This document shows, piece by piece, positions 9,691 through 46,542 of a stretch of DNA of 64,000 nucleotides (positions are counted from its first letter, which is position 1; each line of letters opens with the position of its first letter). This DNA comes from Epilithonimonas mollis (GTDB taxonomy: Bacteria; Bacteroidota; Bacteroidia; Flavobacteriales; Weeksellaceae). The notes below the pieces were generated by a model, which was given only the letters and a program-made list of their open reading frames with translations, was not told the DNA's origin and made no database searches. The translations under genes and the position numbers were made by a program. Location: NCBI RefSeq assembly GCF_900142325.1, contig NZ_FRAM01000004.1, positions 248,001 to 312,000 of the forward strand, given 5' to 3'.

Positions 9691-9693
9691 TAG

Positions 9694-9722
9694 AAAAGAC
9701 GCTTAAATAAAGCGTCTTTTCA
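9694..9722. terminator. Bidirectional terminator
   Basis: Perfect 10-bp stem AAAAGACGCT / AGCGTCTTTT with a 7-base loop, and A/T runs on both sides. It lies between the convergent DUF4349-like and TPR genes and can stop transcription from either side. Confidence 0.88.
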
Positions 9723-9743
9723 TTTATAAACAAATCTGAATAT

Positions 9744-10307
9744 CTAGTTCATCAAGCTTTTACTCAGATTAAGAGCATCTTGATTTGAACTGTCATATTG
9801 CAGAGATTTTGCAATATATTGTTTCGCTTTTTCCGGGTTACTTTCCTTGTCAAGAAATGCAATAAAGAAATAAGCATAAGCTAAATTTTGTTTATTTGCA
9901 TCTACCTCTTCCGGTTTCACTTTGGCAATATATTGTTCATATGCCATTTTTGCACCATCATTATTTTTAGCTGATTGATTAGCATAGCCAATACTATAAT
10001 ATGCAGGTGCCCAATCCGGGATGATAGCAGTCACTTTATTCCAAGTAGCTATGGCAGAAGTCCAGTCACTCGCATTTTGATAAGCGGTAGCCAATCCAAC
10101 AAGCGATTGGGTATCATCCGGCTTCGCAGCAATTTTTTGTTTAAGACCTTCTATTTCAGGGTTGCTTACCCCAGAAGTTTGCGCTGTTGCTGCAGTTTGG
10201 TTGTTGATGGTATCATTTGAAGTTTGGTTTGTTTGTGCAGTCATATAATTTGCTGCAATAAATGATAAACCAAACAATAAGCTTTTAATTTTAAATTCCG
10301 TTTTCAT
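9744..10307 (-). CDS. Exported TPR-repeat protein
   Basis: A 187-residue protein with a signal peptide to about residue 25 (T-A-Q), a Thr/Asn/Gln-rich linker and about three tetratricopeptide units from residue 50 on (L-V-G-L-A-T-A-Y, A-P-A-Y-Y-S-I-G-Y-A, Y-A-Y-F-F-I-A-F-L). TPR solenoids mediate protein-protein contacts. It stands alone, convergent with the DUF4349-like gene and divergent from the MarR gene, so context gives no pathway. Periplasmic location is inferred from the signal peptide. Confidence 0.8.
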   Translation of the reverse strand: MKTEFKIKSLLFGLSFIAANYMTAQTNQTSNDTINNQTAATAQTSGVSNPEIEGLKQKIAAKPDDTQSLVGLATAYQNASDWTSAIATWNKVTAIIPDWAPAYYSIGYANQSAKNNDGAKMAYEQYIAKVKPEEVDANKQNLAYAYFFIAFLDKESNPEKAKQYIAKSLQYDSSNQDALNLSKSLMN

Positions 10308-10546
10308 AACTTTTCAATTTTGTTGTGTTTGATAATTCGCAATAACAATTCCATAAACAAATATTTTTTTAAGTTTTTAAACTTTTTATCATAATTTTAA
10401 GATTGTATGATTAAGTTTTAAGATATTTTAAACATTTGTTTATAAATACAATTTTACTGTTTAAATTATTTTTGGCTTTATTATTGATAGTATTTTTTTA
10501 TACCTTTATATATATTTTTTACAATATTTATACACTAATTACATCC

Positions 10547-11221
10547 ATGAATTTTAAATTAATTAATGACACTATAAAACTTTTGGAAACATTCGACTCC
10601 GAAAATATAAATAGTATCTACTCAAACGATATCAATGGTTTTAAAAACTGGATAGCAGAAAAAGAAATCTCCGAAAAACATATTGTCCCCGAAGAACCGG
10701 CTTGGGAAGGTAAAAACAACGGAAGATCTGCAGAAAGCGTTATCAGCACATTGCTTGTTCATCTAAACAGGTATGCAAAAACTTATTCCAAATCTGCGAT
10801 TGCCGGTTCGGATTTCAGCACGCAGGAAGAATTTATTTACCTGATTAACCTACAGGCTTTTGGCGAAATGACTAAAATAGAACTGATTAAAAAGAACATT
10901 CATGATAAATCTGCCGGTATACTTACTATAAACCGTCTTATAAAGCAAGGTTGGGTGGAACAAACCAATTCTGCCAAAGATAAAAGATCAAAAGTGCTGA
11001 AAATGACCCAGCAAGGCATTATAGCTCTGGATCAGCAAATGAATAAAATCCGGAATGCAAGCAAAATAGTAACCGGAAATCTTAATTATACAGAAAAAAT
11101 ACAACTTATAAAAATACTGGATAAACTAGACCGTTTTCACAATCCGATTTACAACAGGAATATCGACAGCAATCAACTTATAGAAACTGTTTTGAAGGAT
11201 TATTCATTCGGAGAAAATTAA
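10547..11221 (+). CDS. MarR-type winged-helix regulator preceding carotenoid operon
   Basis: A 224-residue DNA-binding protein. The middle to C-terminal region shows a MarR-type winged helix: recognition helix around S-A-G-I-L-T-I-N-R-L-I-K-Q-G-W-V, and a wing at N-S-A-K-D-K-R-S-K-V-L-K-M-T. Starting at the ATG at 10547 avoids 37 preceding codons that would encode a long Phe/Ile-rich stretch not expected in front of this domain; the upstream AT-rich bases are more likely promoter. It is separated by only 4 bases from crtI, so it is probably co-transcribed and a candidate local regulator of pigment synthesis. The inducer is unknown. Confidence 0.8.
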   Translation: MNFKLINDTIKLLETFDSENINSIYSNDINGFKNWIAEKEISEKHIVPEEPAWEGKNNGRSAESVISTLLVHLNRYAKTYSKSAIAGSDFSTQEEFIYLINLQAFGEMTKIELIKKNIHDKSAGILTINRLIKQGWVEQTNSAKDKRSKVLKMTQQGIIALDQQMNKIRNASKIVTGNLNYTEKIQLIKILDKLDRFHNPIYNRNIDSNQLIETVLKDYSFGEN

Positions 11222-11225
11222 AGAC

Positions 11226-12695
11226 ATGAAGAAAAAAACAGCAATTATAGGTTCCGGATTTTCTGGTTTGTCAGCAGCAGCATATTGTTCCGGACTTGGA
11301 AATGAAGTTCACGTTTTTGAAAGAAATGAAAGTCTGGGCGGGCGTGCAAGAAGTTTTCGGACAGACAATGGTTATACTTTCGATATGGGGCCAAGCTGGT
11401 ATTGGATGCCTGATATTATCGAAGGTTTTTTTAAAGATTTTGGATCATCTAGAGAGGATTTTTATGAATTAATTCCTCTCAATCCACAATTTGAAATGGT
11501 TTTTTCTGATGGCAAAATGGAGATTCCTCAGGATTATGAAGAGATGAAAAATCTTTTTGAATTCACGGAAAAAGGAGCCGGAAAAAGGCTTGATGACTTT
11601 ATGAAAGATGCACAGTATAAGTATGAAGTCGGGATGAAAGATTTTGTCAACAAGCCTTGTCATTCCTGGCTGGAATTTTTTTCTCCCACGATTGCTAAAA
11701 GCGCATTAAAACTTGATTTGCTGAGCGATTTTCATCACTTTGTCAGAAAATATTTTAAGCATCCCAAACTGATAACGCTTATGGAATTTCCTGTAATTTT
11801 TCTAGGTGCAGCGCCAAAGGATATTCCAGCTTTGTACAGTCTGATGAATTATGGAGGCTATAAACTCGGAACTTGGTATCCCATGGGCGGATTCATTAAG
11901 ATTATTGAAGCTATGGCAACCATTGGAAAACAAAAAGGCGTTCATTTTCACCTTAATTCCGATGTTCAAAAAATAATAATCGAAGATAAAAAGGTTGCCG
12001 GGATTATGGTAAATGGTGAAAAACTCAAATTTGACACTGTTATTGCTTCCTCCGATTATCATCATACTGAAGAAAAACTTTTGGAGAAAGAATACAGAAA
12101 TTATGACGAAAAATACTGGAAGAAAAAAACTTTTGCTCCATCTTGTTTGATTTTCTACTTAGGATTCAAAGAAAAAATACCTAATCTTAAACATCATACT
12201 TTGTTCTTCGAAAATGATCTTGATCTGCATACAAACGAAATCTATACTGACAAAAAATGGCCGACAAAGCCACTTTTCTATGTTTGTTGTCCTTCAAAAA
12301 CTGATGAAAATCTTGCTCCGGAAAATTGTGAAAATGTTTTCTTGCTAATGCCAATCGCTACAGGAATTGAAGATTCGGAAATGATGAGAGAAAAATATTT
12401 TTCTGAAATGATACAGAGAATCGAGAAACATACAAAAACCAAACATCTGATCTCTAAGCTGGATTATAAGAAAAGCTATTGTATCAACGATTTTATCAGC
12501 GATTATAATGCTTATGAAGGAAATGCATACGGACTGGCAAACACTCTTTCACAGACTGCAGTGCTGAAACCTTCTTTAAAAAACAAAAAAGTTAAAAACC
12601 TTTTTTACACAGGCCAATTAACCGTGCCCGGACCGGGTGTTCCGCCATCCATTATATCCGGAAAAATCGCAGCTACCGAATCCAATAAACCATAA
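11226..12695 (+). CDS. crtI: Phytoene desaturase
   Basis: A 489-residue FAD enzyme that introduces double bonds into phytoene to make lycopene. The N-terminal dinucleotide-binding motif G-S-G-F-S-G (residues 9-14) with Glu32 and the G-G-R-A-R-S-F block is typical, as is the C-terminal Y-T-G-Q-L-T-V-P-G-P-G-V-P motif that contacts FAD. Length matches bacterial CrtI (about 490). It is second in an operon with crtB 17 bases downstream, followed by crtZ and a lycopene cyclase, so the product is all-trans lycopene for zeaxanthin. I see no missing key residues. Confidence 0.96.
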   Translation: MKKKTAIIGSGFSGLSAAAYCSGLGNEVHVFERNESLGGRARSFRTDNGYTFDMGPSWYWMPDIIEGFFKDFGSSREDFYELIPLNPQFEMVFSDGKMEIPQDYEEMKNLFEFTEKGAGKRLDDFMKDAQYKYEVGMKDFVNKPCHSWLEFFSPTIAKSALKLDLLSDFHHFVRKYFKHPKLITLMEFPVIFLGAAPKDIPALYSLMNYGGYKLGTWYPMGGFIKIIEAMATIGKQKGVHFHLNSDVQKIIIEDKKVAGIMVNGEKLKFDTVIASSDYHHTEEKLLEKEYRNYDEKYWKKKTFAPSCLIFYLGFKEKIPNLKHHTLFFENDLDLHTNEIYTDKKWPTKPLFYVCCPSKTDENLAPENCENVFLLMPIATGIEDSEMMREKYFSEMIQRIEKHTKTKHLISKLDYKKSYCINDFISDYNAYEGNAYGLANTLSQTAVLKPSLKNKKVKNLFYTGQLTVPGPGVPPSIISGKIAATESNKP

Positions 12696-12712
12696 CCTGA
12701 ATACATCTAAAT

Positions 12713-13549
12713 ATGAAAAAATTATTCGACGAACTTTCTTATAAGATAAGCAAACAAACGACAAAACAATATAGTACAAGCTTCTCGCTTGGTATCCTTG
12801 CATTGTCACCAAAGATCAGAAATGCCATCTACGCGATCTATGGTTATGTGCGTCTGGCAGACGAAATCGTAGATAGCTTCCATGGTTATGACAAGCAAAA
12901 ATTATTGTCACGTTTCCGAGAAGAAACTACAGTTGCACTGGAAGAGAAAATTTCTTTAAATCCTATTCTGCATTCGTTTCAGGAAACAGTTCATCAATAT
13001 AAAATTGATTTTCAGCTCATTGATCAATTCCTGAGAAGTATGGAAATGGATCTCCATAAGATCGATTATAACTCTGAACTTTATAAAGAATATATCCTTG
13101 GTTCTGCAGAAGTTGTGGGACTAATGTGTCTTCAGGTTTTTGTGGAAGGCAACAAATCTGAATATGAAACGCTCAAACCCTATGCAATGATCCTGGGTTC
13201 CGCTTTCCAGAAAGTGAATTTCCTGCGCGATATGAAAGATGACTATTACGTTTTGGGAAGGACTTATTTCCCGAATGTGGATATAAAGGATTTTGATAAT
13301 AAGGTGAAAGAAGAGATCGAAAAAGAAATTCATGAAGAATTCCAAAAAGCGCTGGAAGGTATAAAATTGCTTCCGAATTCTTCCCGTTTTGGTGTTTACC
13401 TCGCTTACCGGTATTACATTTCATTATTCCGAAAGATCAGAAAAACATCTGCGGGAAAGATTATCAATCAAAGAATAAGAATCTCCAACAGAAGAAAAAT
13501 ATCTCTGATGATGGGCTGTTACCTGGAATATAAAATGTCCATGATATGA
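12713..13549 (+). CDS. crtB: Phytoene synthase
   Basis: A 278-residue cytoplasmic or membrane-associated prenyl synthase that joins two geranylgeranyl diphosphates into phytoene. The two Asp-rich motifs that bind Mg-diphosphate are present: D-E-I-V-D (residues 50-54) and D-M-K-D-D (173-177). The R-T-Y-F-P following the second motif is also typical. Squalene synthase-like enzymes share this fold, but the crtI/crtZ neighbours point to phytoene. The stop overlaps the start of the next gene by 4 bases (ATGA), indicating translational coupling. Confidence 0.95.
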   Translation: MKKLFDELSYKISKQTTKQYSTSFSLGILALSPKIRNAIYAIYGYVRLADEIVDSFHGYDKQKLLSRFREETTVALEEKISLNPILHSFQETVHQYKIDFQLIDQFLRSMEMDLHKIDYNSELYKEYILGSAEVVGLMCLQVFVEGNKSEYETLKPYAMILGSAFQKVNFLRDMKDDYYVLGRTYFPNVDIKDFDNKVKEEIEKEIHEEFQKALEGIKLLPNSSRFGVYLAYRYYISLFRKIRKTSAGKIINQRIRISNRRKISLMMGCYLEYKMSMI

Positions 13550-13995
13550 AAATGATATATTCCTTTTTATTAATTTTTTCTTTTTTGATGCTGTCGAGCC
13601 AGGATATTACTACAATCAGGAAGAATTATCAGAAAGCTGTTTCTGACAAACAGGCTTGCAGAGAAATGCTGGCTCAATTCGAAAATAAAAGAAACGAAGG
13701 TTTGGAACTGGCTTATCAGGGAGCGTTCCAGGCAATCTGGGCAAAACACACAAACAATCCTTTTGAAAAACTCAGTACTTTCAAAAAAGGAAAAAGCAAT
13801 ATCGAAAAAGCTCTGAAACAGAATCCGGATCAGATAGAATCCATATTTCTTCGCTACTCTATCCAGAAAGAAAGCCCCGGATTTTTGGGCTATAAATCGA
13901 ATATCAAGGAAGACAGAGCAATGCTTGATAAAAATGTTAAACATATCGATGACGCATTATTAAAACAAATGATCATCCAGATTCTTAAAAGCTAA
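13546..13995 (+). CDS. Unknown exported protein in carotenoid operon
   Basis: A 149-residue protein with an N-terminal signal peptide (hydrophobic to about residue 17, then S-S-Q-D) and a mostly helical mature part with an A-x-W-A-K-H pattern around residue 63 and a TPR-like helix pair at 75-105 (I-E-K-A-L-K-Q-N-P-D-Q-I-E-S-I-F). I do not recognise a named family. It starts within the crtB stop codon and is followed 2 bases later by the SRPBCC gene, so it is tightly embedded in the pigment operon. A supporting role in the envelope, for example pigment trafficking, is only a guess. Confidence 0.75.
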   Translation: MKMIYSFLLIFSFLMLSSQDITTIRKNYQKAVSDKQACREMLAQFENKRNEGLELAYQGAFQAIWAKHTNNPFEKLSTFKKGKSNIEKALKQNPDQIESIFLRYSIQKESPGFLGYKSNIKEDRAMLDKNVKHIDDALLKQMIIQILKS

Positions 13996-33965: not shown

Positions 33966-35156
33966 TTATTTGAATCTCAAATTCAGGGAAATAATATCAG
34001 ATTTCATTCCCACGGATTTCGTGTAATGTCCGTATCTGATTTCCAGCATATTTAGCCTTTCGACACCAAATAAACCATTCTTCGGATTGATCCTGATTCC
34101 TGCCCCGTAAAAATGACTGTCGAATTTTGAAAGGTCATAGTTACTTGTATAAAAACCATCAAAAGCCGTGTGCTCTTGATAAGGCGCAAAATATTTAGCC
34201 GCAGTCTGAGAATAATATCTGTAAAACGGACTTACCGAAACAAAAGGCGAAATTTTCACCGGCGTTTCCAGGCTGAAAGTATTGGATCTCAAGCCCCAGT
34301 CATCGGTATAATAACGATAATACGCTCTCAGGATGACTTTGTCCCCAAGGAAATAATTCGCTCTTACTCCCAAAGGAATTTTAAACCGTTTATCTGGCAA
34401 AGCTTCCTGATGAACCGAATGATCATTGAAGTAAACTCTGTGGAAAGGCAAACTTAAATATCCCGTCTGCTGAACACCATCCGCCAAAAATTCAACCTGA
34501 AAATTTTGATTGATAATTTGCGAATAGGAAAGAGACAGCGCAAAAGTATTTCTTCCGCTGGTTCCATAACTTTCGTGTTCTCCTCCAGTGCTTCCGTTTG
34601 TTCTGAGCTCAATCGGAGCAATCAGTTTTACCTGATCCAGATAAGCCTGAAATTTTGCGGTAAACTCTCCCATTCTGTTCTTGGTCTTTTGTGAAAATCC
34701 AATGTTTGCTCCGTACGATGCATAATCGAACTCGAAGGAAGTAGAAACACCCGCCATTAAAGTCGTCCCTTTTTCGGTGTTCTCACGGCTCCAGCTTAAC
34801 GCAGGATAAATTCTGTTGTCTGCGTGGGAAGCTGATGAATTGGCTTTCAGATCGATCATATCCGAAGAAGCGGACGTATAATGATCGATCCCGACACTGA
34901 AATCGAATTTATTTTTCCGGTCTTTCTTATCGTATTTTACCATAGTTACGTCAATGGTATTGGAAATGTCGGTCAGTTTTTCCGTCCCGATTCCTCCCGT
35001 CACTGCTGAGTTGTTTCCGTTTTGTTTATAATAGCTTGAAACTAAATTAGCTTCATCAAAAGTCAGTTTTTTAGACTGTTCGTTGTTTGTGTTTTCCTGT
35101 GCTTTTACGTTGAAAATTCCGAAAAGAGCAATAACACTTACGATTATTTTTTTCAT
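33966..35156 (-). CDS. DUF3570 outer-membrane beta-barrel protein
   Basis: A 396-residue protein. From the ATG at 35156 a signal peptide (M-K-K-I-I-V-S-V to K-A-Q-E) is followed by alternating amphipathic strands with aromatic girdles and a C-terminal Phe-Lys strand (I-S-L-N-L-R-F-K), a beta-barrel pattern. The D-Y-A-S-Y-G-A-N and Y-Y-R-Y-Y-T-D-D-W-G motifs fit DUF3570. A longer frame back to 35315 overlaps the DUF4266 gene and lacks a signal, so I reject it. It comes last in the order thioredoxin, ApbE, DUF4266, DUF3570, suggesting an outer-membrane partner for a flavin- or metal-dependent redox step. Role unproven. Confidence 0.85.
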   Translation of the reverse strand: MKKIIVSVIALFGIFNVKAQENTNNEQSKKLTFDEANLVSSYYKQNGNNSAVTGGIGTEKLTDISNTIDVTMVKYDKKDRKNKFDFSVGIDHYTSASSDMIDLKANSSASHADNRIYPALSWSRENTEKGTTLMAGVSTSFEFDYASYGANIGFSQKTKNRMGEFTAKFQAYLDQVKLIAPIELRTNGSTGGEHESYGTSGRNTFALSLSYSQIINQNFQVEFLADGVQQTGYLSLPFHRVYFNDHSVHQEALPDKRFKIPLGVRANYFLGDKVILRAYYRYYTDDWGLRSNTFSLETPVKISPFVSVSPFYRYYSQTAAKYFAPYQEHTAFDGFYTSNYDLSKFDSHFYGAGIRINPKNGLFGVERLNMLEIRYGHYTKSVGMKSDIISLNLRFK

Positions 35157-35190
35157 TTTTGAATCACAATTAAATTTTACGATTACTCTT

Positions 35191-35412
35191 TTAGTTACAT
35201 CCGCAACCGCCACCCACTTTTCCGGCATTCGCTCCAGAAGATCCTTCTCTGTAGGACTGAAAGCTGAGCTCAGTTTTTTCAATCGTTCTGTTTCCGAGAA
35301 CCATTTCAGCGTCATTTAATTTATTTTTTTCGTACTCTTTTACGGTTGTGCAGGACTGTACCGAAGCAACTGTGATCAGTAAGCAAGCTAATATTTTTAT
35401 AAGGTTTTTCAT
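35191..35412 (-). CDS. DUF4266 small Cys-ended lipoprotein
   Basis: A 73-residue lipoprotein. Lipobox ends at Cys21 (V-Q-S-C). The mature peptide is about 53 residues with N-D-A-E-M-V-L near 33-39, R-E-G-S-S-G-A-N-A at 55-63 and an end G-G-G-C-G-C-N with Cys70 and Cys72. It overlaps apbE by 4 bases and precedes the DUF3570 barrel by 34 bases, so the three are co-expressed. The E-G-S-S-G-A-N segment resembles the ApbE target motif (D-x-x-S-G-A-T), but the acceptor Thr is Asn here, so flavin attachment at that site is doubtful. The two terminal Cys could bind metal or flavin, or form a disulfide with the nearby thioredoxin-like protein. Confidence 0.85.
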   Translation of the reverse strand: MKNLIKILACLLITVASVQSCTTVKEYEKNKLNDAEMVLGNRTIEKTELSFQSYREGSSGANAGKVGGGCGCN

Positions 35413-36335
35413 TTTAAATTAATGTTTTGAGATGAATAAATTTTGTCCTGGTCATCAATAATGATGCATTCCAGATGATTGATCTGGTTGATCATATTGA
35501 GCGCCGCATTGATTCCCATAATGCATACGGGAGTCGCCATTGCATCGGCAATTTCTGCGTTGGGACAAAAAATTGTAACACTTTTCACACCCGAAACAGG
35601 CATTCCTGTTTTGGGATTAATGGTATGAGAATATTTTTTACCGTTGATCACGACGAATTTTTCATAATTTCCCGAAGTTGCAATTGCCATATCGGTGATA
35701 TTCATATACGAAAACGGCTGTTTTGCGTTGTCGGGATCGGCAATTCCGACCGTCCAGGGTTTTCCGTCTGCCTGATTTCCCCAAGTCGTTAGATCGCCTG
35801 AAGCATTAACAATTCCGGAAGTAACACCTCTGTTTTGAAGCATCTGTTTTGTCATTTCTGCAGCGTAACCCTTCCCGATTCCTCCGAAACCGATCCGCAT
35901 TCCTTTTTCTTTGAGGAAAACGGTTTGCTTTTCACGGTCAAGAATAATATTCTGATAATTAACTAGTTTCAGATGTTCTTTAATCAGTTCAGGATTAGGA
36001 AGTTCTTTCATTTCACGGTCGAAGTTCCAGAAACTTTTATCGATTCCGCCATACGAGATATCGAAATATCCATCCGTTATTCTGCTGATCCTCAAACTTC
36101 TTTCAATCAAGTTAAAAATCTCCCAATCTACTTTTACAGGCTGGATTCCTGCATTTCTGTTGATAAGATTGGTCTGGCTTTCCTCACTGAATGTCGTCAG
36201 AAGTTTTTCAATTCTCCTGATTTCTTCAATAGCCGCATCAATATGACTGTAAGCGGATTTTTCTTCATTGCTAACAACGGTAATTTCAAAAGCGTTCCCC
36301 ATTAATTTCTGAGGTCTTTTGAATTCTCTTAACAT
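35409..36335 (-). CDS. apbE: FAD:protein FMN transferase
   Basis: A 308-residue ApbE-family enzyme that transfers FMN from FAD to Thr of target proteins outside the cytoplasm. Core motifs: G-N-A-F-E-I near the N-terminus, the I-G-F-G-G-I-G-K-G-Y-A-A-E block, N-A-S-G-D-L, and the H-T-I-N-P-K-T-G-M-P motif with the Mg site. From the ATG at 36335 it lies 4 bases after the thioredoxin gene; the longer frame to 36392 would overlap it and is unlikely. There is no clear signal peptide from this start, so it may act before or without export, or an unusual leader may be used. Its target is not obvious; DUF4266 is the best local candidate. Confidence 0.9.
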   Translation of the reverse strand: MLREFKRPQKLMGNAFEITVVSNEEKSAYSHIDAAIEEIRRIEKLLTTFSEESQTNLINRNAGIQPVKVDWEIFNLIERSLRISRITDGYFDISYGGIDKSFWNFDREMKELPNPELIKEHLKLVNYQNIILDREKQTVFLKEKGMRIGFGGIGKGYAAEMTKQMLQNRGVTSGIVNASGDLTTWGNQADGKPWTVGIADPDNAKQPFSYMNITDMAIATSGNYEKFVVINGKKYSHTINPKTGMPVSGVKSVTIFCPNAEIADAMATPVCIMGINAALNMINQINHLECIIIDDQDKIYSSQNINLK

Positions 36336-36339
36336 ACTT

Positions 36340-36783
36340 TTATTTTTGATTTTCTTTGATATCTCTAATCTCTTTACTGAAAGCTGAAGCATTTTCCGCA
36401 GGAAGACCTTCCCAGCTTTTCAGGATTTTGCCTTCCGGATTCAGCAATAATGTGTAAGGAAATAGTCCTTTTTTATTGTACTGATCAGCCAGTAAAGCAT
36501 TTTCTTTTTTCAGTTCCGGAGAAAGCTGATTCTTTTTGTTTCTTGGAAAATCTGCATTGATGTAAACCACGACATTTTCTGTTTCCAGCTTTTTAAATTC
36601 ATCACTTTCAATGATATTTTTATGAAGCTTGATGCATGGAATGCACCAGTCGGAACCGGAGAAATTCAAAAGTATAAGTTCTTTATTTTCTAAAGCTAGT
36701 TTTTGGGCATTTTCCAAACGGCTTTGCGCATGAATGCCAACAGCAAATACAACCATTAAAATGGCTGAAAATAGTTTTTTCAT
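36340..36783 (-). CDS. Exported thioredoxin-like protein
   Basis: A 147-residue protein with signal peptide (M-K-K-L-F-S-A-I to I-H-A-Q) and a thioredoxin fold with D-W-C-I-P-C (Cys47, Cys50), then a cis-Pro region at F-P-Y-T-L-L-L-N-P-E-G. It is suited to reducing or exchanging disulfides in the periplasm. I choose the ATG at 36783 because the longer frame to 36837 lacks a signal peptide. It sits between the 129-residue unknown gene and apbE, so it likely serves the cysteine pair of DUF4266 or a metal-binding protein of this block. Confidence 0.88.
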   Translation of the reverse strand: MKKLFSAILMVVFAVGIHAQSRLENAQKLALENKELILLNFSGSDWCIPCIKLHKNIIESDEFKKLETENVVVYINADFPRNKKNQLSPELKKENALLADQYNKKGLFPYTLLLNPEGKILKSWEGLPAENASAFSKEIRDIKENQK

Positions 36784-36854: not shown

Positions 36855-37244
36855 TTATGAAAAAGAAAACCTTGGCGGTTCCCAAACGGAATTCAGAAAA
36901 CCTTTATAGCAAAGATCTTCGTCTTTTGAAGGGATTCTATGTATTTTTAAAGGACTGAAATGATATGTTACCGTTTCAAAACTGAATCCCGGATTAATTG
37001 TAAAAACCAATGACAAAGGTGCAGAATGAATGATAAACGGAAGTCTCTGATCTTTTCCGTAATCCCCATCTTTGACAGGATGATCATAATGTGTTCTCAG
37101 AAATGCCGTAAGCGTCATATCCGGATTCAAATCCTTATGCTCGACGTAATGCTCGATCAGTTCCGGGATTTTCAAAAGCTGATATAATTCGGTTGTGGAA
37201 ACCAAATATAAAAATAACAACAATATGGAAATCAATTTTTTCAC
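36855..37244 (-). CDS. Unknown exported protein, metal-block paralogue A
   Basis: A 129-residue protein starting with GTG. N-terminus K-K-L-I-S-I-L-L-L-F-L-Y-L-V-S-T-T-E-L-Y-Q is a signal or membrane segment. The mature part has L-I-E-H-Y-V-E-H-K and P-V-K-D-G-D-Y-G-K-D-Q-R-L-P-F. It is a close relative of the gene at 46159-46542, with the same start codon and N-terminus; the copies bracket the efflux genes. I do not know its function. His residues in the E-H-Y-x-E-H-K region could bind metal. Confidence 0.8.
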   Translation of the reverse strand: MKKLISILLLFLYLVSTTELYQLLKIPELIEHYVEHKDLNPDMTLTAFLRTHYDHPVKDGDYGKDQRLPFIIHSAPLSLVFTINPGFSFETVTYHFSPLKIHRIPSKDEDLCYKGFLNSVWEPPRFSFS

Positions 37245-37293: not shown

Positions 37294-39804
37294 TTAGCTA
37301 TTTCTATTAGTCATTCTTTTTATCAGTTTAAAAATTTCGAACCAAAGTACTGAGATAGCTGCTAACAGGAATGATGCTGACAATTCTTCCAAAGTCAGAG
37401 AGGAAACATCAAAAAATTCCGAGACCGGCCTTACATATAGAATCATTAGTAAAAGCAATAAGACTAATGCGGAAATTCCTAAAAGGAGATTATTGCGATT
37501 TTTTAAACTCTCGAAAACACTGTAGTAAAAAGAACGGTTGACGAAACTAAGTAGAATATTAGCAAAAATAAGCGTACTGAAAACCAAAGCTCTGGTCTTA
37601 GGCTCATCATTTCCCAGGTCTATAGAATATTGGTACATCCATAATATTCCTGCGGTAATTACCAATCCCTGAATAATACTTACCATAAGTTCCCGCCAGT
37701 TGAGGAATGTATCAGAAAGTGCCCTTGGAGGTTTTTTCATCGCATTTTTTTCAAGTGGTTCATTTTCATAGACTATAGAACAGGTTGGTCCCATTACCAG
37801 CTCAAGAAAAATAACATGAACAGGGGTAAAAATATGCGGAAAAATCCAACCCAGAAACAGTGGCAGAGAAACAGTAAGAATGATCGGAATATGAATGGAA
37901 ATGATGTATTGCACCGCTTTTTTTATGTTGGAATATATTCTTCTTCCGGCAGCAATTCCTGTCACCAGTTTTTCCAGATCATCGTTTGTAATCACGAGTG
38001 AAGCGGCGGATTTGGCAATTTCCGTTCCTTTGTTTCCCATGGCAACTCCGATGTGGGCGGCTTTGAGAGCAGGACCGTCATTGACTCCGTCACCAAGCAT
38101 TGCTACGACATTTCCCTGTTTTTTTAAAGCTGTAATGACTTCAAGTTTCGCTTCCGGGAACATTCTTGTAAACAGGGTTGTATTTTCAGTAAGTTTTAGC
38201 AGATTTTCTTCTGAAAGAGACAGGATTTCGCTTCCGTTCACTGCATCAGCATCATTGCGGATTCCTGCCTGCAGAGCAATGGCCTTTGTAGTATCGGCAT
38301 TGTCTCCGGTAATTACCTTTACTTTAATTCCGGCATCGTAAATATCCTGAAAAACGTTTTTAATTCCTTTTTTAGGAGGATCGTAAAAAACTGTCAAGCC
38401 TAAGAAAATAAACGAAAAATCCTGCTGCCTTTCCGGAAAATTACTTCCTTCAAAAAATGCTTTGCCAACTCCCAGAACACGGTATCCCTGTTCTCCGAAT
38501 TCCTTCACAATATTTCTGATTTTATCTTTTTCAGTTTCCGTAAGATCGGAAACGCTGATAATTGCTTCGGGAGCCCCTTTTGCAGCAATAATCCTCTGTT
38601 TCTGTGCGTTTTCGAAAAGATGGGTCATCATGGGAGGTTTCCCTTCCAGGGGATATTCATGAAAAAGCTGAAAATCCTTTCTCTGATCAGGGTTCTGGGT
38701 TTGCTCATAAACTTTGTGCAAGGTAATTTCCATGGGATCAAACGGAACAGGCTCACTGCTCCACATCGCATAATGAATGAGCTCGTCCAGATCGTTTACA
38801 TCAAATTTATCCTCACTGTATACGGTATTCGTTTTATAATCATAAAAATTTTTCAACTGCATGGAATTTTCTGTAATAGTCCCTGTTTTATCGGTACAGA
38901 TCACCGTGGTACTTCCAAGAGTTTCTACAATACTGCTTCTTTTGATGATGATTCCTTCACGCATAAGCTTCCACGCTCCCAATGCCATGAAAGTGGTAAA
39001 AGCAACAGGGATTTCTTCAGGAAGCACAGACATTGCCAACGTTAAGCCACTTAACAGACTCGTTACAAAATCACGGCTCTTGATGAAGCTGAAAATACAG
39101 ACTGCCAGAAAAATACAGATCCCTATAATCGCCATTCCTTTCACAAAATTCCGGATCTGAAGCTGCAGAGGAGATACTTCTTCCCGGATATTTAAGATAG
39201 ATTGTCCGATTTTTCCTACTTTCGTTTCCTTTCCAATTTTTTCAACTTCAAAAACAGCCAGCCCGGAAACTGTTATCGTTCCGCTGTACACATAATTGTC
39301 TTCCGATGTGCTGTCTTTAAAAACGGAAAAGCTTTCTCCTGTAAGAGAAGATTCATTAACAGAAAAATCATTACTTTGAACGATTCTTCCGTCTGCATTG
39401 ATTAAGCTGCCTTCCTCTGTTATACAAAGATCTCCCAGAACAATTTCGTGTGTGGGAATTTCCACCACCTCAGCATTCCGGATCACTTTACTCAAAGGTT
39501 CATTAAGTTTTTCCAGTTCTTCCAGTGCTTTTTTGCTACGGTTATCCTGATAGAAAGAGATTGCCGTAACAAAAATTATGGCCGCGAGCATAAAAGCGGC
39601 TTCCCCATAATCCGCGGTTAGGATATAAATAACGGAAACGCAAATGAGCAGAATAAGCATCGGCTCTTTAAGGGTATTAAACAGCATGCTCATCCATGTT
39701 TCTTTCCTGATGGCATCCATTCTGTTATAGCCGTGTTTTTCTCTGGAAACTTTAACTTCAGTTTCTGTAAGACCACGAAAATCTTTTGGTATATTATAAG
39801 TCAT
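37294..39804 (-). CDS. P-type cation-transporting ATPase (P2 type)
   Basis: An 836-residue membrane pump. N-terminal cation ATPase domain, then L-T-G-E-S (154-158), the membrane motif P-E-E-I-P-V (262-267), the phosphorylation motif with Asp305 in C-T-D-K-T-G-T, and the hinge L-G-D-G-V-N-D-G-P-A-L-K. Ten helices are expected. The P-E-E-I-P signature and lack of heavy-metal CPx or N-terminal metal domains indicate a P2-type (Ca2+/Mn2+/Mg2+-like) pump rather than a copper pump. It lies between the CusCBA-type genes and the second small paralogue. Its real ion is unclear. Confidence 0.88.
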   Translation of the reverse strand: MTYNIPKDFRGLTETEVKVSREKHGYNRMDAIRKETWMSMLFNTLKEPMLILLICVSVIYILTADYGEAAFMLAAIIFVTAISFYQDNRSKKALEELEKLNEPLSKVIRNAEVVEIPTHEIVLGDLCITEEGSLINADGRIVQSNDFSVNESSLTGESFSVFKDSTSEDNYVYSGTITVSGLAVFEVEKIGKETKVGKIGQSILNIREEVSPLQLQIRNFVKGMAIIGICIFLAVCIFSFIKSRDFVTSLLSGLTLAMSVLPEEIPVAFTTFMALGAWKLMREGIIIKRSSIVETLGSTTVICTDKTGTITENSMQLKNFYDYKTNTVYSEDKFDVNDLDELIHYAMWSSEPVPFDPMEITLHKVYEQTQNPDQRKDFQLFHEYPLEGKPPMMTHLFENAQKQRIIAAKGAPEAIISVSDLTETEKDKIRNIVKEFGEQGYRVLGVGKAFFEGSNFPERQQDFSFIFLGLTVFYDPPKKGIKNVFQDIYDAGIKVKVITGDNADTTKAIALQAGIRNDADAVNGSEILSLSEENLLKLTENTTLFTRMFPEAKLEVITALKKQGNVVAMLGDGVNDGPALKAAHIGVAMGNKGTEIAKSAASLVITNDDLEKLVTGIAAGRRIYSNIKKAVQYIISIHIPIILTVSLPLFLGWIFPHIFTPVHVIFLELVMGPTCSIVYENEPLEKNAMKKPPRALSDTFLNWRELMVSIIQGLVITAGILWMYQYSIDLGNDEPKTRALVFSTLIFANILLSFVNRSFYYSVFESLKNRNNLLLGISALVLLLLLMILYVRPVSEFFDVSSLTLEELSASFLLAAISVLWFEIFKLIKRMTNRNS

Positions 39805-39876: not shown

Positions 39877-40341
39877 CTAGCGGATCTGCTTTTTTACCGA
39901 AGCTGCCCATTGTACAATTTCAGACCTTTCCGATGCGGATAATCTCGCATTCTGATGTACAATCGTATAGGATTCAAGCGGCATTTCTCCATTTTGCACT
40001 GTTTCGGTAATTTCATCCAGTTTATCAAGCTTTTTTTCGTTTGAATATGCCGCAAACTCATCAAAATTCAAGTGTCTTTTTCCTGAGTCCACATGATCTG
40101 CAAGCCACCATTTTAAAGGCTGAATATTATTATACCACGGATAGGAAGTCGTATTGGAATGGCAGTCGTAACAGCTGTTTTTCAGCAGGCTCTGAACGCG
40201 GTCAGGAACTTCATAGTGTTTTTCTAAAGAATTTGCTGAAACGCTTACAGCAATATTTGTGTCTGCGTCAATAAACTGAATAACGATAAGAAGTAATATG
40301 ATGAACAATGCTAGTGTTTTTATTAGTGAATATTTTTTCAT
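39877..40341 (-). CDS. Exported heme-binding-domain protein
   Basis: A 154-residue protein with an N-terminal hydrophobic segment (about 8-23) and a c-haem attachment motif C-Y-D-C-H (Cys57, Cys60, His61), followed by S-N-T-T-S-Y-P-W-Y-N, typical of the Haem_bd family in Bacteroidota. It is probably anchored in the periplasm. It lies 26 bases after the CusB-like gene, in the order CusA, TolC, CusB, this gene, P-type ATPase. A redox or metal-sensing role next to efflux is inferred. Confidence 0.85.
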   Translation of the reverse strand: MKKYSLIKTLALFIILLLIVIQFIDADTNIAVSVSANSLEKHYEVPDRVQSLLKNSCYDCHSNTTSYPWYNNIQPLKWWLADHVDSGKRHLNFDEFAAYSNEKKLDKLDEITETVQNGEMPLESYTIVHQNARLSASERSEIVQWAASVKKQIR

Positions 40342-40367: not shown

Positions 40368-41507
40368 CTACTCCTCTTCCTCCGTATTTTTAAGCTTCAT
40401 CAAAAGCGTGTAAGCATTTTTGGTCACGATCTTTTTATTCTTAAAATCATCAGAATTAAGAATCTGGATAAATCCGTTTTCCGTTTCTCCCAAAGTAACA
40501 GGAGTCAATCGGTATGTTTGTTTTTTAACCTCAACAAAAACAAAATCTTTGCCTTCAAAATTCACGATGCTTTCTTCCGGAACCGCATTGGAAAAAGAAG
40601 TACTGGTTTCAATTTCGGCATTCATATACATTCCCGGAACGAGACTGTGATCGTATTTATCGAAATGGCAGTGAACTTCTGCCAAACCGCCCTGACTGAT
40701 ATCTTTGCTGATGAGAAGGATTTCCCCATAATATTTTTTGCTCGGATCTGCATTCGTGTACGCTGCAAAACGCTGTCCTTTTTTCAGGTTTTCCAGATCT
40801 TTTTCGTACACTTTAAGATTCAGGTGAATGTCATCGGGATTGATGAGCTCAAAAAGCACATCCGAAGGATTTACATATTTCCCGATATTCACATTCACTT
40901 TGCTTACAAATCCGTTGATTGAGCTGTACACGGGAACGCTTTTCGTAATGCTTCCTGATTTTAAAGATTCAGGATTGACATTGATGAGTCTGAGCTGCTG
41001 CGCCAATGAATTCATTAAAATTCTCTGGCTGTTCATTTCAGACTGAGCGAGCTGCATGGCTTTGTCGCTACTTGCCTGACTTTGGTTCAGGGCTTTCTGA
41101 CGGTTGTAATCCAGTTCCGCAAAATGTGCTTTGGATCTTGCCATTAAATAATCCTGCTGAAGCTGAATGAACTGCGGATTTTCGATCACGGCAATGACCT
41201 GACCTCTGGAAACCGGCATTCCCGGAAGAAGATTGCTGGATTTCAGATAGCCGCCAAGCGGAATGCTTACTGAAACCAGATTTTGGGGCGGAACATCGAT
41301 CATTCCGTTTAATTTCAGGGTGGAAGCGATATTCTGCAACGAAAGCGTGGTTGTTTCTATCGGTGCATTTCTTAACTGTGCATCGGTTAAAGTCACTACA
41401 TTTTCGTCTTTCGGGAGGCTTTTTTCCTGTTTGGGAGCTTCTTCTTTTTTACATTGAATGAAGACAAAAAAGCTGATTAATAAGATATATATTGAAATTG
41501 ATTTCAT
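40368..41507 (-). CDS. RND efflux periplasmic adaptor, CusB-like lipoprotein
   Basis: A 379-residue membrane fusion protein. Lipobox ends at Cys19 (F-I-Q-C-K). The barrel-sandwich hybrid lies near 85-220 with a helical hairpin at 110-170 (Y-L-M-A-R-S-K-A-H-F-A-E-L-D-Y), then the beta-barrel and membrane-proximal domains. It bridges the CusA-like pump and the TolC-like channel. The stop of TolC lies 4 bases upstream, so the three are co-translated in order. Confidence 0.92.
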   Translation of the reverse strand: MKSISIYILLISFFVFIQCKKEEAPKQEKSLPKDENVVTLTDAQLRNAPIETTTLSLQNIASTLKLNGMIDVPPQNLVSVSIPLGGYLKSSNLLPGMPVSRGQVIAVIENPQFIQLQQDYLMARSKAHFAELDYNRQKALNQSQASSDKAMQLAQSEMNSQRILMNSLAQQLRLINVNPESLKSGSITKSVPVYSSINGFVSKVNVNIGKYVNPSDVLFELINPDDIHLNLKVYEKDLENLKKGQRFAAYTNADPSKKYYGEILLISKDISQGGLAEVHCHFDKYDHSLVPGMYMNAEIETSTSFSNAVPEESIVNFEGKDFVFVEVKKQTYRLTPVTLGETENGFIQILNSDDFKNKKIVTKNAYTLLMKLKNTEEEE

Positions 41508-41511
41508 TTTT

Positions 41512-42738
41512 TTATGGATTTAAAGTAAGATATTCCAGTTCAATGGCGCTTTGATTAAGTTTCCAGACTGCATCGGTGTAATTGTTTTTAAGCTGTACTG
41601 CCTGATTTACGAGGATCACAAATTCAAGGTAATTGATTTCTCCGCCGATAAACTGTCTTTTTGCCGTTTCGGTGATCACATCCGCATTTTTCAGGTCGGA
41701 ACTTTCATATTTTGAAACAATTTCCAGATTGGACTGATAGATTTCTCTGGCTTTTTTAAGCTGATTCTGAAGATTGAATTCAGCGTTTTTCAGTTCACTT
41801 TCTGCAACAGACTGCGCTACTTTTGCGGCTTCAATTCTCGCTTTCTGACCTCCTGAAAATATCGGAAGCGAAACACCGACCTGAGCCGAATGAAACTGAG
41901 GTGTTGCATTATACAATTTATCATCCGGACCTAATCCTTTAAAACTGTTAAGATTGTACGCCAATTGCAGACCGGGAAGCATTTTCGCTTTTTCCAGTGC
42001 GATCTGTTCTGTGGAAATATTTTTCTGCTGTTCCCAGATTTTCAGCAAAGGATGATCCGCCAGTTTTTCGTTTAAAGAATTGGCAAAAGATTTTGAATCT
42101 TCGGGAATGAAATCGGTTTCCGTATTCAAAAGCCACTGAAACTGGATCTTTAATACGGCTAATTCCTGCTGCAATTGTTTTAACTGAATTTCTATCGCCG
42201 ATTTCTGGCTTGAAGCGGTTGTTTTTTCGAGAATATTGCTCTCCCCTGCTTTCAGTCTGAGGTTCGCTTTATCTGAAAAGTCGGTGTACAGTTTCAGGAT
42301 TTCATTCAGCAGTTTTTCTTTTTCTTTCCAGTACAGAATGTTGTAAAAGGTAAGGCTGACTGCTTTTTTAAGTTCATATTCTTTCAGGGAAACATTCAGC
42401 AAAGATTTTTTCCATTCTTCGGTGTATACATTTTTCTGTTTTTTATACACTGTCGGAAAAGCAATGTTCTGGGAAACGCCAAATTTCATATCGTTGTACG
42501 CACTGTTGATCTGTCCGTAATCGAACGTTACACCAGTCTGCGGAATATCATTTGCCGATTTTATCAACGCTTTGGAATATTCCGATTTAAGTTTTTCGTT
42601 TTTAAGATTTCTGTTGTTTTCCAGTGCGGTATTGATCGCAGTATGAAGATTGATTGGCGTTTGCGCCTTCAGTCCAAATCCTGCAAAGCTGAACAGCAAA
42701 ATGAATACAGCCGTTATATTTTTGTGATTATTTTTCAT
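41512..42738 (-). CDS. TolC-family outer-membrane efflux channel
   Basis: A 408-residue protein with a signal peptide (to about residue 25, L-K-A-Q) and two OEP repeats rich in long amphipathic helices (about 35-210 and 225-405), the TolC plan. It gives the exit channel for the tripartite pump. Placed between the CusA- and CusB-like genes. Confidence 0.92.
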   Translation of the reverse strand: MKNNHKNITAVFILLFSFAGFGLKAQTPINLHTAINTALENNRNLKNEKLKSEYSKALIKSANDIPQTGVTFDYGQINSAYNDMKFGVSQNIAFPTVYKKQKNVYTEEWKKSLLNVSLKEYELKKAVSLTFYNILYWKEKEKLLNEILKLYTDFSDKANLRLKAGESNILEKTTASSQKSAIEIQLKQLQQELAVLKIQFQWLLNTETDFIPEDSKSFANSLNEKLADHPLLKIWEQQKNISTEQIALEKAKMLPGLQLAYNLNSFKGLGPDDKLYNATPQFHSAQVGVSLPIFSGGQKARIEAAKVAQSVAESELKNAEFNLQNQLKKAREIYQSNLEIVSKYESSDLKNADVITETAKRQFIGGEINYLEFVILVNQAVQLKNNYTDAVWKLNQSAIELEYLTLNP

Positions 42739-42786: not shown

Positions 42787-45700
42787 TCATAGGCGTTTGC
42801 GTTTTCCAAATGATGGCGATTTCATTTTAAATCCTTTTTCAATGGTTACATAAAGAAGCGGCAGTACAAAAAGCGTAAGGAAGGTTGCCACGAGAAGACC
42901 TCCGATCACCACGGTTGCCAACGGACGCTGAACTTCCGCTCCTGCTCCGTTGCTTAATGCCATCGGAATAAATCCTAAAGATGCCACGAAAGCCGTCATC
43001 AGAACCGGACGAAGTCTGGACTCTCCGCCATCAATTACAATTCTTACGATATTCCGGATTCCGCTTTTGTATAATCTGTTGAATTCTGAAATGAGAACGA
43101 TCCCGTTGAGAACTGCCACTCCGAAAAGGGCGATGAAACCTACTCCTGCACTGATGCTGAAAGGCATTCCTCTCAAAGCAAGAAGAAATACGCCGCCAAT
43201 AATTGAAAGTGGAATTGCGGTGTAAATCAGCAGACTTTCTTTCACCGAGCCGAATGCTAAGAACAACATCACGAAAATAAGCGCCAAAGCTACCGGAACA
43301 GCAATCATCAGACGCTGTTTTGCATTGTTCAGGTTTTCAAAAGAACCTCCGTAAGTCATATAATAACCTGTCGGAAGTTTTATCTCTTTGTTCACTTTAG
43401 TCTGAAGTTCCTCCACGATGCTCTGAACATCTCTTCCTTTGATGTTGAATCCAACGACAATTCTGCGTTGTGCATTTTCTCTCTGAATTTGATTGGGGCC
43501 GTTTTTCACCTCAACTCTTGCAAGCTGGGAAAGCGGAATCTGGTTTCCGAAAGGGGTCGGAACAAGCAGATTTTTAATATCATCCACATTTTTACGGACT
43601 TTGGAATCGAGACGAACAACCATATCGAAACGTTTTTCGCCTTCGAACACGAGACCTGTACTCTGCCCTGCAAATGCGGCATTCACAATCCGATTGATGT
43701 CGGAAATGGATAAATGATATTGTGCAATAACAGGACGGTTGTATTCTATGGTTACCTGTGGCATTCCTGCAATCGGCTCGATGTAAAGATTCTGGGCTCC
43801 GTCTACAGTTTCAATAATTTTCCCGAGTTTTTGAGCATTTTGGGAAAGAACGTCCAGATCATCACCGAAAATTTTCACCACGACATCCTGTCTTGCTCCT
43901 GTCATCAGTTCATTGAAACGCATCTGCACCGGAAACTGGAAACTTACGGTTACTCCGGGAACATCCTGCAGTTCTTTGCTCATTTTATCTGCCAGTTCAG
44001 GGAATGTAGAGGCAGAAGTCCATTCTTTTTTGTCTTTCAGGATCACCATTAAATCGGCAGCATCCATCGACATCGGATCTGTAGGAATTTCCCCGCTCCC
44101 GATTTTTGTCACGACTTTTTGTACTTCCGGAAATCTTGATTTCAGGATATGAGCTGCCTTCTGTGTACTTTCAATGGTTGTATTCAGATTGCTTCCCGGC
44201 AAAACTCTGGTTTCCACGGCAAAATCTCCTTCTTCAAGGGAAGGAATAAATTCTCCTCCCATTCTGCTGAGAATGAAAATTGCCAAGACAAAAAGTACAG
44301 CCACGATGGAGAATACCATTTTCGGAACTCTTAAGATTTTAAGCAGTGTTTTCAGATAGATTTTCTCCACTTTTTTCATCATCTGGTCAGATAAACTCGG
44401 TTTTGAACTTCTTTTTCTTAAGAGTAAAGAACTCATCATCGGAATGTAGGTTAACGACAATAAAAATGCTCCTAATAGAGCGAAAGCCACAGTCTGAGCC
44501 ATTGGTTTGAACATTTTCCCCTCAATTCCCTGTAAGGTAAGAATCGGAAGATAAACAATCAGGATGATAATCTGTCCGAAAACTGCACTGTTCATCATTT
44601 TTCCGGCAGAATCAGTAACAATGGTATCCATTTCTTCTTTTCCAACGGAGAATATTTTTTTGAATTTTGAATTATGGCTGAACTGATGCAGGACGGATTC
44701 TACAATAATGACTGCACCGTCGATTATAAGGCCAAAATCCAATGCACCGAGACTCATCAGGTTTCCGCTGACTCCGAAAAGATTCATCATACAAATGGCA
44801 AAAAGCATAGCGAGCGGAATTACAGAAGCAACGAGCAATCCGGCGCGTACATTTCCGAGAAACAGAACCAGTACAAAAACAACAATCAATGCGCCTTCTG
44901 TAAGGTTTTTCTCAACGGTTCCGATGGCGTTGTTTACCATTTTGGTACGATCGAGGAACGGTTCTATCACTACTCCTTTCGGAAGGGTCTTCTGAATCTG
45001 GGCAATTTTTTCTTTTACGTTTTTAATAACCTGATTGCTGTTTTCGCCTTTCAGCATCATCACCACTGCCCCGGAAACTTCTCCCTGATCGTTGAACGTC
45101 ATTGCACCGTATCTTGTGGCAAAGCTGGTTTTCACCTCTGCAACGTCTCTTACAAACAGCGGGATTTCATTGGTTTTGGAAGCAATCGCTATATTTTTAA
45201 TGTCTTCGATATTTCCGATGAGACCTTCGCTTCGGATGTATAAAACAGTGGGACCTTTTTCGATATAAGCTCCTCCTGTGTTCTGGTTATTGGTGTTTAA
45301 TGCATCGAAAACATCGTTAATGGTGATTCCGTAAGCATTTAATCTGTCGGGATTGACGGCAATTTCGTACTGTTTCAGTTTTCCTCCGAAACTGCTGACT
45401 TCAGCAACGCCTTTTACACCGAGAAGCTGTCTTCTGACAATCCAGTCCTGAATGGTGCGGAGTTCTGTAATATCGTATTTTTTCTCGTAGCCTTTTTCGG
45501 GACGGATCACGTACTGGAAAATTTCGCCTAACCCTGTAGAAATAGGACCTAATTCGGGAGTTCCTATTCCCTGTGGAATCTGGCTCTGAACCTGCTGCAG
45601 CCTTTCTGCAACCTGCTGTCTTGCCCAGTAAATATCTACATCATCCTCAAAGACGATGGTAACGAGAGATAACCCGAAACGGGAAAAACTTCGGATTTCT

Positions 45701-45939
45701 TTTAATCCTGAAATGTTATTGTTCGCCTGTTCTATGGGAAATGTCACGAGTCTTTCGATGTCTGTTGCTCCAAATGAAGGGGCAATGGTGATGACCTGAA
45801 CCTGATTGTTGGTGATATCGGGAACGGCATCTATCGGAAGTTTGGTGACCTGATAGGAACCCACGCCTATCAATCCCAAAATCAACAGCGCAATGATGAG
45901 TTTGTTCTTTACAGAAAACTCAATGATTTTTGTAAGCAT
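42787..45939 (-). CDS. CusA/CzcA-type heavy-metal RND efflux pump
   Basis: A 1050-residue inner-membrane RND transporter with 12 helices and two large periplasmic loops. The N-terminus (L-T-K-I-I-E-F-S-V-K-N-K) and the D-F-G-L-I-I-D-G-A-V-I-I-V-E motif in helix 4, carrying the proton-relay Asp residues, mark the heavy-metal efflux group. The export of Cu(I)/Ag(I) versus Zn/Co/Cd cannot be settled without inspecting the Met triad; an M-R-F-N-E-L-M-T-G-A-R stretch near residue 673 offers Met residues consistent with a Cus-like site. First of the efflux genes, after the 127-residue unknown. Confidence 0.93.
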   Translation of the reverse strand: MLTKIIEFSVKNKLIIALLILGLIGVGSYQVTKLPIDAVPDITNNQVQVITIAPSFGATDIERLVTFPIEQANNNISGLKEIRSFSRFGLSLVTIVFEDDVDIYWARQQVAERLQQVQSQIPQGIGTPELGPISTGLGEIFQYVIRPEKGYEKKYDITELRTIQDWIVRRQLLGVKGVAEVSSFGGKLKQYEIAVNPDRLNAYGITINDVFDALNTNNQNTGGAYIEKGPTVLYIRSEGLIGNIEDIKNIAIASKTNEIPLFVRDVAEVKTSFATRYGAMTFNDQGEVSGAVVMMLKGENSNQVIKNVKEKIAQIQKTLPKGVVIEPFLDRTKMVNNAIGTVEKNLTEGALIVVFVLVLFLGNVRAGLLVASVIPLAMLFAICMMNLFGVSGNLMSLGALDFGLIIDGAVIIVESVLHQFSHNSKFKKIFSVGKEEMDTIVTDSAGKMMNSAVFGQIIILIVYLPILTLQGIEGKMFKPMAQTVAFALLGAFLLSLTYIPMMSSLLLRKRSSKPSLSDQMMKKVEKIYLKTLLKILRVPKMVFSIVAVLFVLAIFILSRMGGEFIPSLEEGDFAVETRVLPGSNLNTTIESTQKAAHILKSRFPEVQKVVTKIGSGEIPTDPMSMDAADLMVILKDKKEWTSASTFPELADKMSKELQDVPGVTVSFQFPVQMRFNELMTGARQDVVVKIFGDDLDVLSQNAQKLGKIIETVDGAQNLYIEPIAGMPQVTIEYNRPVIAQYHLSISDINRIVNAAFAGQSTGLVFEGEKRFDMVVRLDSKVRKNVDDIKNLLVPTPFGNQIPLSQLARVEVKNGPNQIQRENAQRRIVVGFNIKGRDVQSIVEELQTKVNKEIKLPTGYYMTYGGSFENLNNAKQRLMIAVPVALALIFVMLFLAFGSVKESLLIYTAIPLSIIGGVFLLALRGMPFSISAGVGFIALFGVAVLNGIVLISEFNRLYKSGIRNIVRIVIDGGESRLRPVLMTAFVASLGFIPMALSNGAGAEVQRPLATVVIGGLLVATFLTLFVLPLLYVTIEKGFKMKSPSFGKRKRL

Positions 45940-46158: not shown

Positions 46159-46542
46159 TCAACAAGATTTCGGCGGCTGCCAGATAGAATTGAGAATATC
46201 TTTATTGTAAAAGATGCTTTTGTAAAAAGTCTGTTTGGATTTAATAATCGGGTTGGATTCTTTATCGAACAAATGAAACGTAAAAGGTGTTGCAGGTGTA
46301 CATACGATGATAAGATGAGCTGCGTGCGAAACAAACGGTAACTGCTGATCTTTGGTGTAATCTGAATCTTTTACCGGATTATCATAATGGATTTTAAAGA
46401 ATGAACCTATAGTAATATTCGGATCTTCCTCTTTGTGTTCCAGATAATGTTCAATAAGAACCGGAATTTTCAAAAACTGATACAGCTCGGTTGTAGAAAC
46501 CAAGTATAAACTAAGCAATAGTATTGAGATCAGTTTTTTCAC
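46159..46542 (-). CDS. Unknown exported protein, metal-block paralogue B
   Basis: A 127-residue protein starting with GTG, with N-terminus K-K-L-I-S-I-L-L-L-S-L-Y-L-V-S-T-T-E-L-Y-Q nearly identical to the gene at 36855-37244. Shared mature features: I-E-H-Y-L-E-H-K and P-V-K-D-S-D-Y-T-K-D-Q-Q-L-P-F, then a C-terminal W-Q-P-P or W-E-P-P. It is the first gene of the minus-strand metal block, 219 bases ahead of the CusA-like gene. Function unknown. Carriage of the same unknown gene at both ends of the efflux set implies a linked role in metal handling. Confidence 0.8.
   Translation of the reverse strand: MKKLISILLLSLYLVSTTELYQFLKIPVLIEHYLEHKEEDPNITIGSFFKIHYDNPVKDSDYTKDQQLPFVSHAAHLIIVCTPATPFTFHLFDKESNPIIKSKQTFYKSIFYNKDILNSIWQPPKSC

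Follow-up and report, generated by a model that had tools for sequence, protein, structure and literature searches.

The four genes examined here form a real and conserved module of an already described kind, one more member of that kind with a testable feature in its ApbE. To judge from its sequence, this ApbE is apparently cytosolic and is paired with an outer-membrane target, a combination of which we found no report elsewhere. The module lies within a 64,000-nucleotide stretch of Epilithonimonas mollis DNA (the window). A sequence-only reading of the window had described four co-directional genes and proposed them as an undescribed redox system. The arrangement was confirmed, with all four genes on the minus strand from 36783 down to 33966. 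The novelty did not hold, since both the cluster and the flavinylation of a DUF3570 protein were reported in 2021 by Méheust et al. (PMC8238504). The features of the module are as follows.

36340-36783, minus strand: exported thioredoxin-like protein (Trx), 147 residues with a signal peptide; Pfam Thioredoxin_2 and Thioredoxin_7 (Thioredoxin_2, 1.2e-7)
36634-36645, minus strand: Trx active site WCIPC, residues C47 and C50
35409-36335, minus strand: ApbE, FAD:protein FMN transferase, 308 residues; Pfam 1.5e-81
35191-35412, minus strand: DUF4266 lipoprotein, 73 residues; Pfam 7.6e-18
35350-35352, minus strand: lipobox Cys21 of DUF4266
35197-35205, minus strand: C-terminal CGC of DUF4266
33966-35156, minus strand: DUF3570 outer-membrane beta-barrel, the probable flavin carrier, 396 residues; Pfam 1.1e-30

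Trx and ApbE are separated by a 4-base gap, ApbE and DUF4266 overlap by 4 bases, and a 34-base gap lies between DUF4266 and DUF3570. The Trx matched DsbH in NCBIfam below the cut-off, and its nearest solved chain was a thioredoxin disulfide isomerase (2ju5). The ApbE match spanned the entire Pfam profile at 274 bits, and the active-site stretches GGIGKG, NASGD, HTINPKTG and ADAMAT were all found in the sequence. Its nearest solved relatives were FAD:protein FMN transferases and its nearest homologue, from C. ureilyticum, was 94% identical; by such relatives the genome groups with Weeksellaceae of the Chryseobacterium group. The DUF3570 (PF12094) and DUF4266 (PF14086) profiles scored 107.3 bits against a cut-off of 25 and 65.6 bits against a cut-off of 27, respectively, the latter protein carrying the C-terminal CxC; sequence searches found no solved structure for either family. 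The length of 53 mature residues given earlier for the lipoprotein was reproduced with Cys21 as the lipobox cysteine, and the sequence ends GGGCGCN. A Bacteroidota-type promoter pattern gave 4 matches against 1.5 expected, which is uninformative since 10 of 100 shuffles gave as many.

According to the 2021 study by Méheust and co-workers (PMC8238504), in which DUF3570 was identified as an ApbE substrate, clusters of ApbE, DUF3570, Trx and DUF4266 occur in hundreds of genomes. In that work the DUF3570 of Chlorobium luteolum was flavinylated when co-expressed with its cognate ApbE in E. coli; it has two [S/T]GA[S/T] sites, and flavinylation was lost only when both motif serines were replaced. 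The same source noted the CxC of DUF4266 and proposed that DsbD feeds a system of hybrid thioredoxin/flavin type; it described the four families clustered with DsbD in some cases and without it in another 316. Our searches of the non-subscription, non-preprint literature returned nothing beyond this paper for DUF4266 or DUF3570, and nothing tied to the cluster for flavinylation together with thioredoxin, b561 or Rieske proteins.

Conservation of the four genes was well above chance expectation. It had been suggested that co-occurrence of ApbE, DUF4266 and DUF3570 be sought, and a conserved neighbourhood was indeed found: in 99 of 149 DUF4266-bearing loci the complete set was encoded on a single strand and spanned no more than 3.5 kb, many of the incomplete loci being short or end-of-contig pieces. 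The order Trx-ApbE-DUF4266-DUF3570 was kept in 87 of the 99 complete loci. Trx was absent from several loci of one family (f17, possibly Chlorobiaceae, as we assume) in the same phylum as the window. Among 118 Weeksellaceae genomes, DUF3570 was observed in 29, and 28 of these also carried ApbE (hypergeometric P 2.8e-6), with the two genes adjoining in all 28 by their listed coordinates; in the one remaining genome DUF3570 was a 128-residue fragment. ApbE itself was observed in 74 of the 118 genomes, 28 with DUF3570 and 7 with an FMN-binding domain, which by subtraction gives 39 genomes with ApbE and neither of these. Two loci (L057 and L060) held DUF4266-DUF3570 pairs with no ApbE or Trx within 3.5 kb, and their DUF3570 proteins have TGAT close to the acceptor region. 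At another locus (L066:6371-7933) an exported thioredoxin and ApbE were fused in one frame, adjoining DUF4266 and DUF3570.

The flavin carrier of the module is likely the DUF3570 barrel, the only DUF3570 encoded in the genome, in which two putative acceptor sites were located.

34866-34886, minus strand: putative flavinylation site 1, DHYTSAS, acceptor Ser97; Ala96 and Ser97 unchanged across all 72 aligned DUF3570 sequences
34827-34838, minus strand: putative flavinylation site 2, SSAS, acceptor Ser110; Ser in 59 of 72 sequences, Lys in 13 of 72

Two [S/T][G/S]A[S/T] motifs in the mature barrel compare with 0.11 expected (P 0.0046 by shuffling). The putative acceptor motif departs from the consensus in having Ser in the Gly position ([S/T]-S-A-S), which counts against the model; most Bacteroidota relatives have the same substitution, and TGAS or SGAS motifs were observed in DUF3570 of relatives outside the window's class. 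The 13 sequences with Lys at the second site, in L050 and similar loci, are natural single-site variants.

The sequence-only reading had offered either the lipoprotein or the barrel as flavin carrier. The barrel gained from its two motifs and from the experiment on its homologue (PMC8238504), while the lipoprotein was found to have no [S/T]GA[S/T]-type motif. DUF4266 adjoins ApbE and contains a Ser-Gly-Ala-Asn stretch, but the residue in its acceptor position is not a conserved Ser or Thr among relatives, and we regard it as highly improbable that the lipoprotein carries the flavin in place of the barrel. Its lipobox Cys and CGC were invariant in an alignment of 13 diverse members. With the CGC as the only invariant candidate and no acceptor motif, DUF4266 is better seen as a candidate thiol relay than as a flavin carrier.

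An AlphaFold2 model of DUF3570 built with 72 sequences (pLDDT 87.8, pTM 0.82) predicted 16 strands. The best VIA match to this model was BamA, a 16-strand barrel (Z 21.3), with other outer-membrane barrels next. Fold searches with Foldseek (TM about 0.4) and VIA (Z up to 21) returned generic barrels only, and neither named a specific structural relative. In the model, residues 95-112 form a loop that connects strands 3 and 4 and has the acceptor serines near its two ends; this loop follows an odd-numbered strand, as do the remaining long loops. If both ends of the barrel are periplasmic, as is usual, loop 95-112 and the other long loops would lie outside, and both acceptor serines would then sit on a single extracellular loop. 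We infer this position, since loop 95-112 is of low confidence in the model.

The second feature of the module concerns the location of ApbE. The earlier reading made no mention of a signal peptide on this protein, and none was found: whichever usable start was taken, the residues before the core included no hydrophobic stretch of the kind expected for an extracytosolic ApbE with a signal peptide or lipobox. Across the loci, ApbE was without a signal in 97 and with one in 20, where calls were made by an in-house hydrophobicity measure, not SignalP, and the split was judged by eye wherever the measure took in residues upstream of plausible starts. For 69 of the 97 signal-less proteins an in-frame upstream stop (or the contig start) was located 25 residues or fewer from the core. 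When ApbE cores were placed on a tree, the Bacteroidota rows without a signal fell into one clade of 83 (SH-aLRT 98), and the signal label needed three changes overall. Hydrophobic N-termini were kept by the partners in the signal-less loci, in 77 of 77 Trx, 97 of 97 DUF4266 and 95 of 97 DUF3570 proteins.

ApbE is present as a single copy in the genome, which has one DUF3570 and in which no FMN-binding-domain protein was found, so no other ApbE is available for the task. Since this sole ApbE is signal-less while Trx, the lipoprotein and the barrel are exported, attachment of FMN would need to take place in the cytosol and to precede export. ApbE could instead act in the periplasm as usual, if it were exported along some route not yet recognised or made as a frameshifted Trx-ApbE fusion, and the natural fusion with an N-terminal signal in L066 offers a precedent. 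We consider this unlikely, as the stops just upstream of the core close most signal-less frames, the sequence around the stop codon of the window's Trx showed no suitable slippage site, and the signal-less trait defines a well-supported clade. The frameshift fusion was rejected, with no supporting site and with upstream stops in most relatives.

Attachment in the cytosol also meets objections. We know of no covalently flavinylated Sec substrate, and this counts against the cytosolic step. For another ApbE, published work found a periplasmic location to be essential for function (reviewed in PMC12052999), which likewise counts against it. In the passages of that 2025 ApbE review that were found, cytosolic ApbEs are mentioned for cytosolic or eukaryotic targets only. 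The 2021 survey demanded a signal in at least one target gene per cluster, and no discussion of signal-less ApbE in DUF3570 clusters was found in the available parts of its text (PMC8238504). That a cytosolic ApbE flavinylates the barrel before export throughout the clade, with Sec and BAM carrying two covalent FMNs to an extracellular loop, is a tentative proposal to which we give somewhat less than even weight. If true, it would provide a cytochrome-free flavin conductor at the cell surface and make FAD export unnecessary. The signal-less ApbE raises the question of whether a covalently flavinylated protein can pass through export and still fold in the outer membrane, or whether ApbE itself leaves the cytosol by a route not yet described; either would be new.

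Genes around the module were examined in the window and in related loci. Those in the window were all on the minus strand.

36855-37244, minus strand: small exported protein of 129 residues with no Pfam match, directly upstream of the module
37294-39804, minus strand: P-type cation ATPase (Pfam)
39877-40341, minus strand: haem-binding CxxCH protein (Pfam)
40368-41507, minus strand: CusB-type protein (Pfam)
41512-42738, minus strand: TolC-type protein (Pfam)
42787-45939, minus strand: CusA-type RND protein (read from sequence)
46159-46542, minus strand: paralogue of the 129-residue protein, also small and exported, preceding the RND pump genes

The 129-residue protein was a same-strand neighbour of the module in every one of 26 occurrences, spread over 25 loci, and it is possibly a fifth module member in Weeksellaceae and some Chitinophaga. 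Among 108 loci, VIT1 adjoined the module in 25, on the same strand in 25 of 25, while cytochrome b561 was observed nearby in 13 and a Rieske protein in 8, with 7 of the latter directly upstream of Trx. Of the 108, 32 had response regulators and 27 had histidine kinases. Examples include L049, where response regulator, kinase, b561, VIT1 and Rieske genes (9251-13687) are followed on one strand by Trx-ApbE-DUF4266-DUF3570, and Pedobacter chitinilyticus (L106), where b561 immediately precedes Trx while the regulator, kinase and VIT1 genes follow DUF3570. The b561, Rieske and VIT1 neighbours suggest that electrons may enter by other means and that the module is connected with iron. No DsbD was found beside the module, and DsbD-type candidates in the genome were confined to contigs C4 and C5.

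The adjoining efflux genes had earlier been taken to hint at metal reduction or copper handling. A metal link is plausible, given the efflux genes co-linear with the module in several Chryseobacterium and VIT1 beside it in 25 loci, but nothing specific to copper was observed, and iron is, as a guess, better supported than copper. The flavinylated barrel might serve assimilation as a surface or periplasmic ferric reductase supplying Fe(II), for example for uptake by VIT1 and partners. The same-strand VIT1 and the b561 genes favour this, as do the 25 DUF3570 clusters with VIT1 counted in the published survey (PMC8238504). Against it, the single VIT1 of this genome sits on another contig, VIT-family proteins can also clear iron or manganese from the cytosol, and within the window the genes neighbouring the module encode efflux proteins; we hold assimilation to be possible and rather short of probable. 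An accessory role in metal stress, in which the module would aid the co-linear RND and P-type ATPase efflux by handling envelope redox damage or the metal redox state, draws on several Chryseobacterium in which efflux genes, the haem-binding protein and the module are co-directional. Strand agreement with each efflux neighbour gave a P of about 1e-4, a value that overstates independence since the loci and species are related by descent. The efflux link also recurred chiefly in Weeksellaceae, with a few cases elsewhere, whereas the four-gene core has a far broader distribution, and we find this role doubtful.

Our preferred reading, to which we give fairly good odds, is that the module is an envelope-to-surface electron relay joining thiol and flavin chemistry, with FMN attached by ApbE before export. 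Its most likely function would be to carry electrons outward from thiols in the periplasm to an acceptor at the surface, which may be iron. ApbE would transfer FMN onto Ser97 and Ser110 of DUF3570, in this lineage in the cytosol, followed by Sec export of the unfolded barrel. Reduction of the exported Trx would come from a DsbD-type protein whose gene lies elsewhere, from a quinol-linked partner or, among some relatives, from cytochrome b561/Rieske partners, and Trx would pass electrons to the two cysteines of the CGC in DUF4266. The CGC would in turn reduce the FMN on the barrel, and the flavins, on a presumed extracellular loop, would reduce an outside acceptor, perhaps Fe(III). We infer the electron path with its direction, the partner at each step and the acceptor, and likewise that the flavins are extracellular and where they are attached; the genes, their order and conservation, the acceptor motifs, the single signal-less ApbE and the barrel prediction were computed here, and covalent flavinylation was shown by others, for the Chlorobium luteolum homologue only. 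The relay model leaves the route from periplasmic-side thiols to outer-side flavins unexplained, and this counts against it, as does the lack of a DsbD gene next to the module. A surface-directed relay is nevertheless plausible, and would give a barrel whose function is not established a part in electron transfer at the surface of Bacteroidota that are very common in soil, in water and on hosts, as a cytochrome-free candidate for extracellular metal reduction by these bacteria.

Compared with the clusters of Méheust et al. (PMC8238504), the module has the same four families, the DUF3570 acceptor motifs and the DUF4266 CxC, and with no DsbD adjoining it fits the subset of 316 DsbD-less clusters. 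It differs in its ApbE without signal peptide, in motifs of the form [S/T]SAS and not [S/T]GA[S/T], and in the metal-efflux array and 129-residue protein alongside; its relatives also carry b561 and Rieske genes, which are unmentioned in the available text of PMC8238504. With DsbD-type reductive relays and DsbH-like thioredoxins it shares a thioredoxin that is exported, carries a WCxPC site and comes closest to DsbH, whereas the end acceptor proposed here is a covalent flavin on a barrel. The cytosolic ApbE of Klebsiella pneumoniae and its soluble fumarate reductase (PMC12052999) similarly combine a signal-less ApbE with a dedicated target, but that target is cytosolic, while the one here is an exported outer-membrane barrel.
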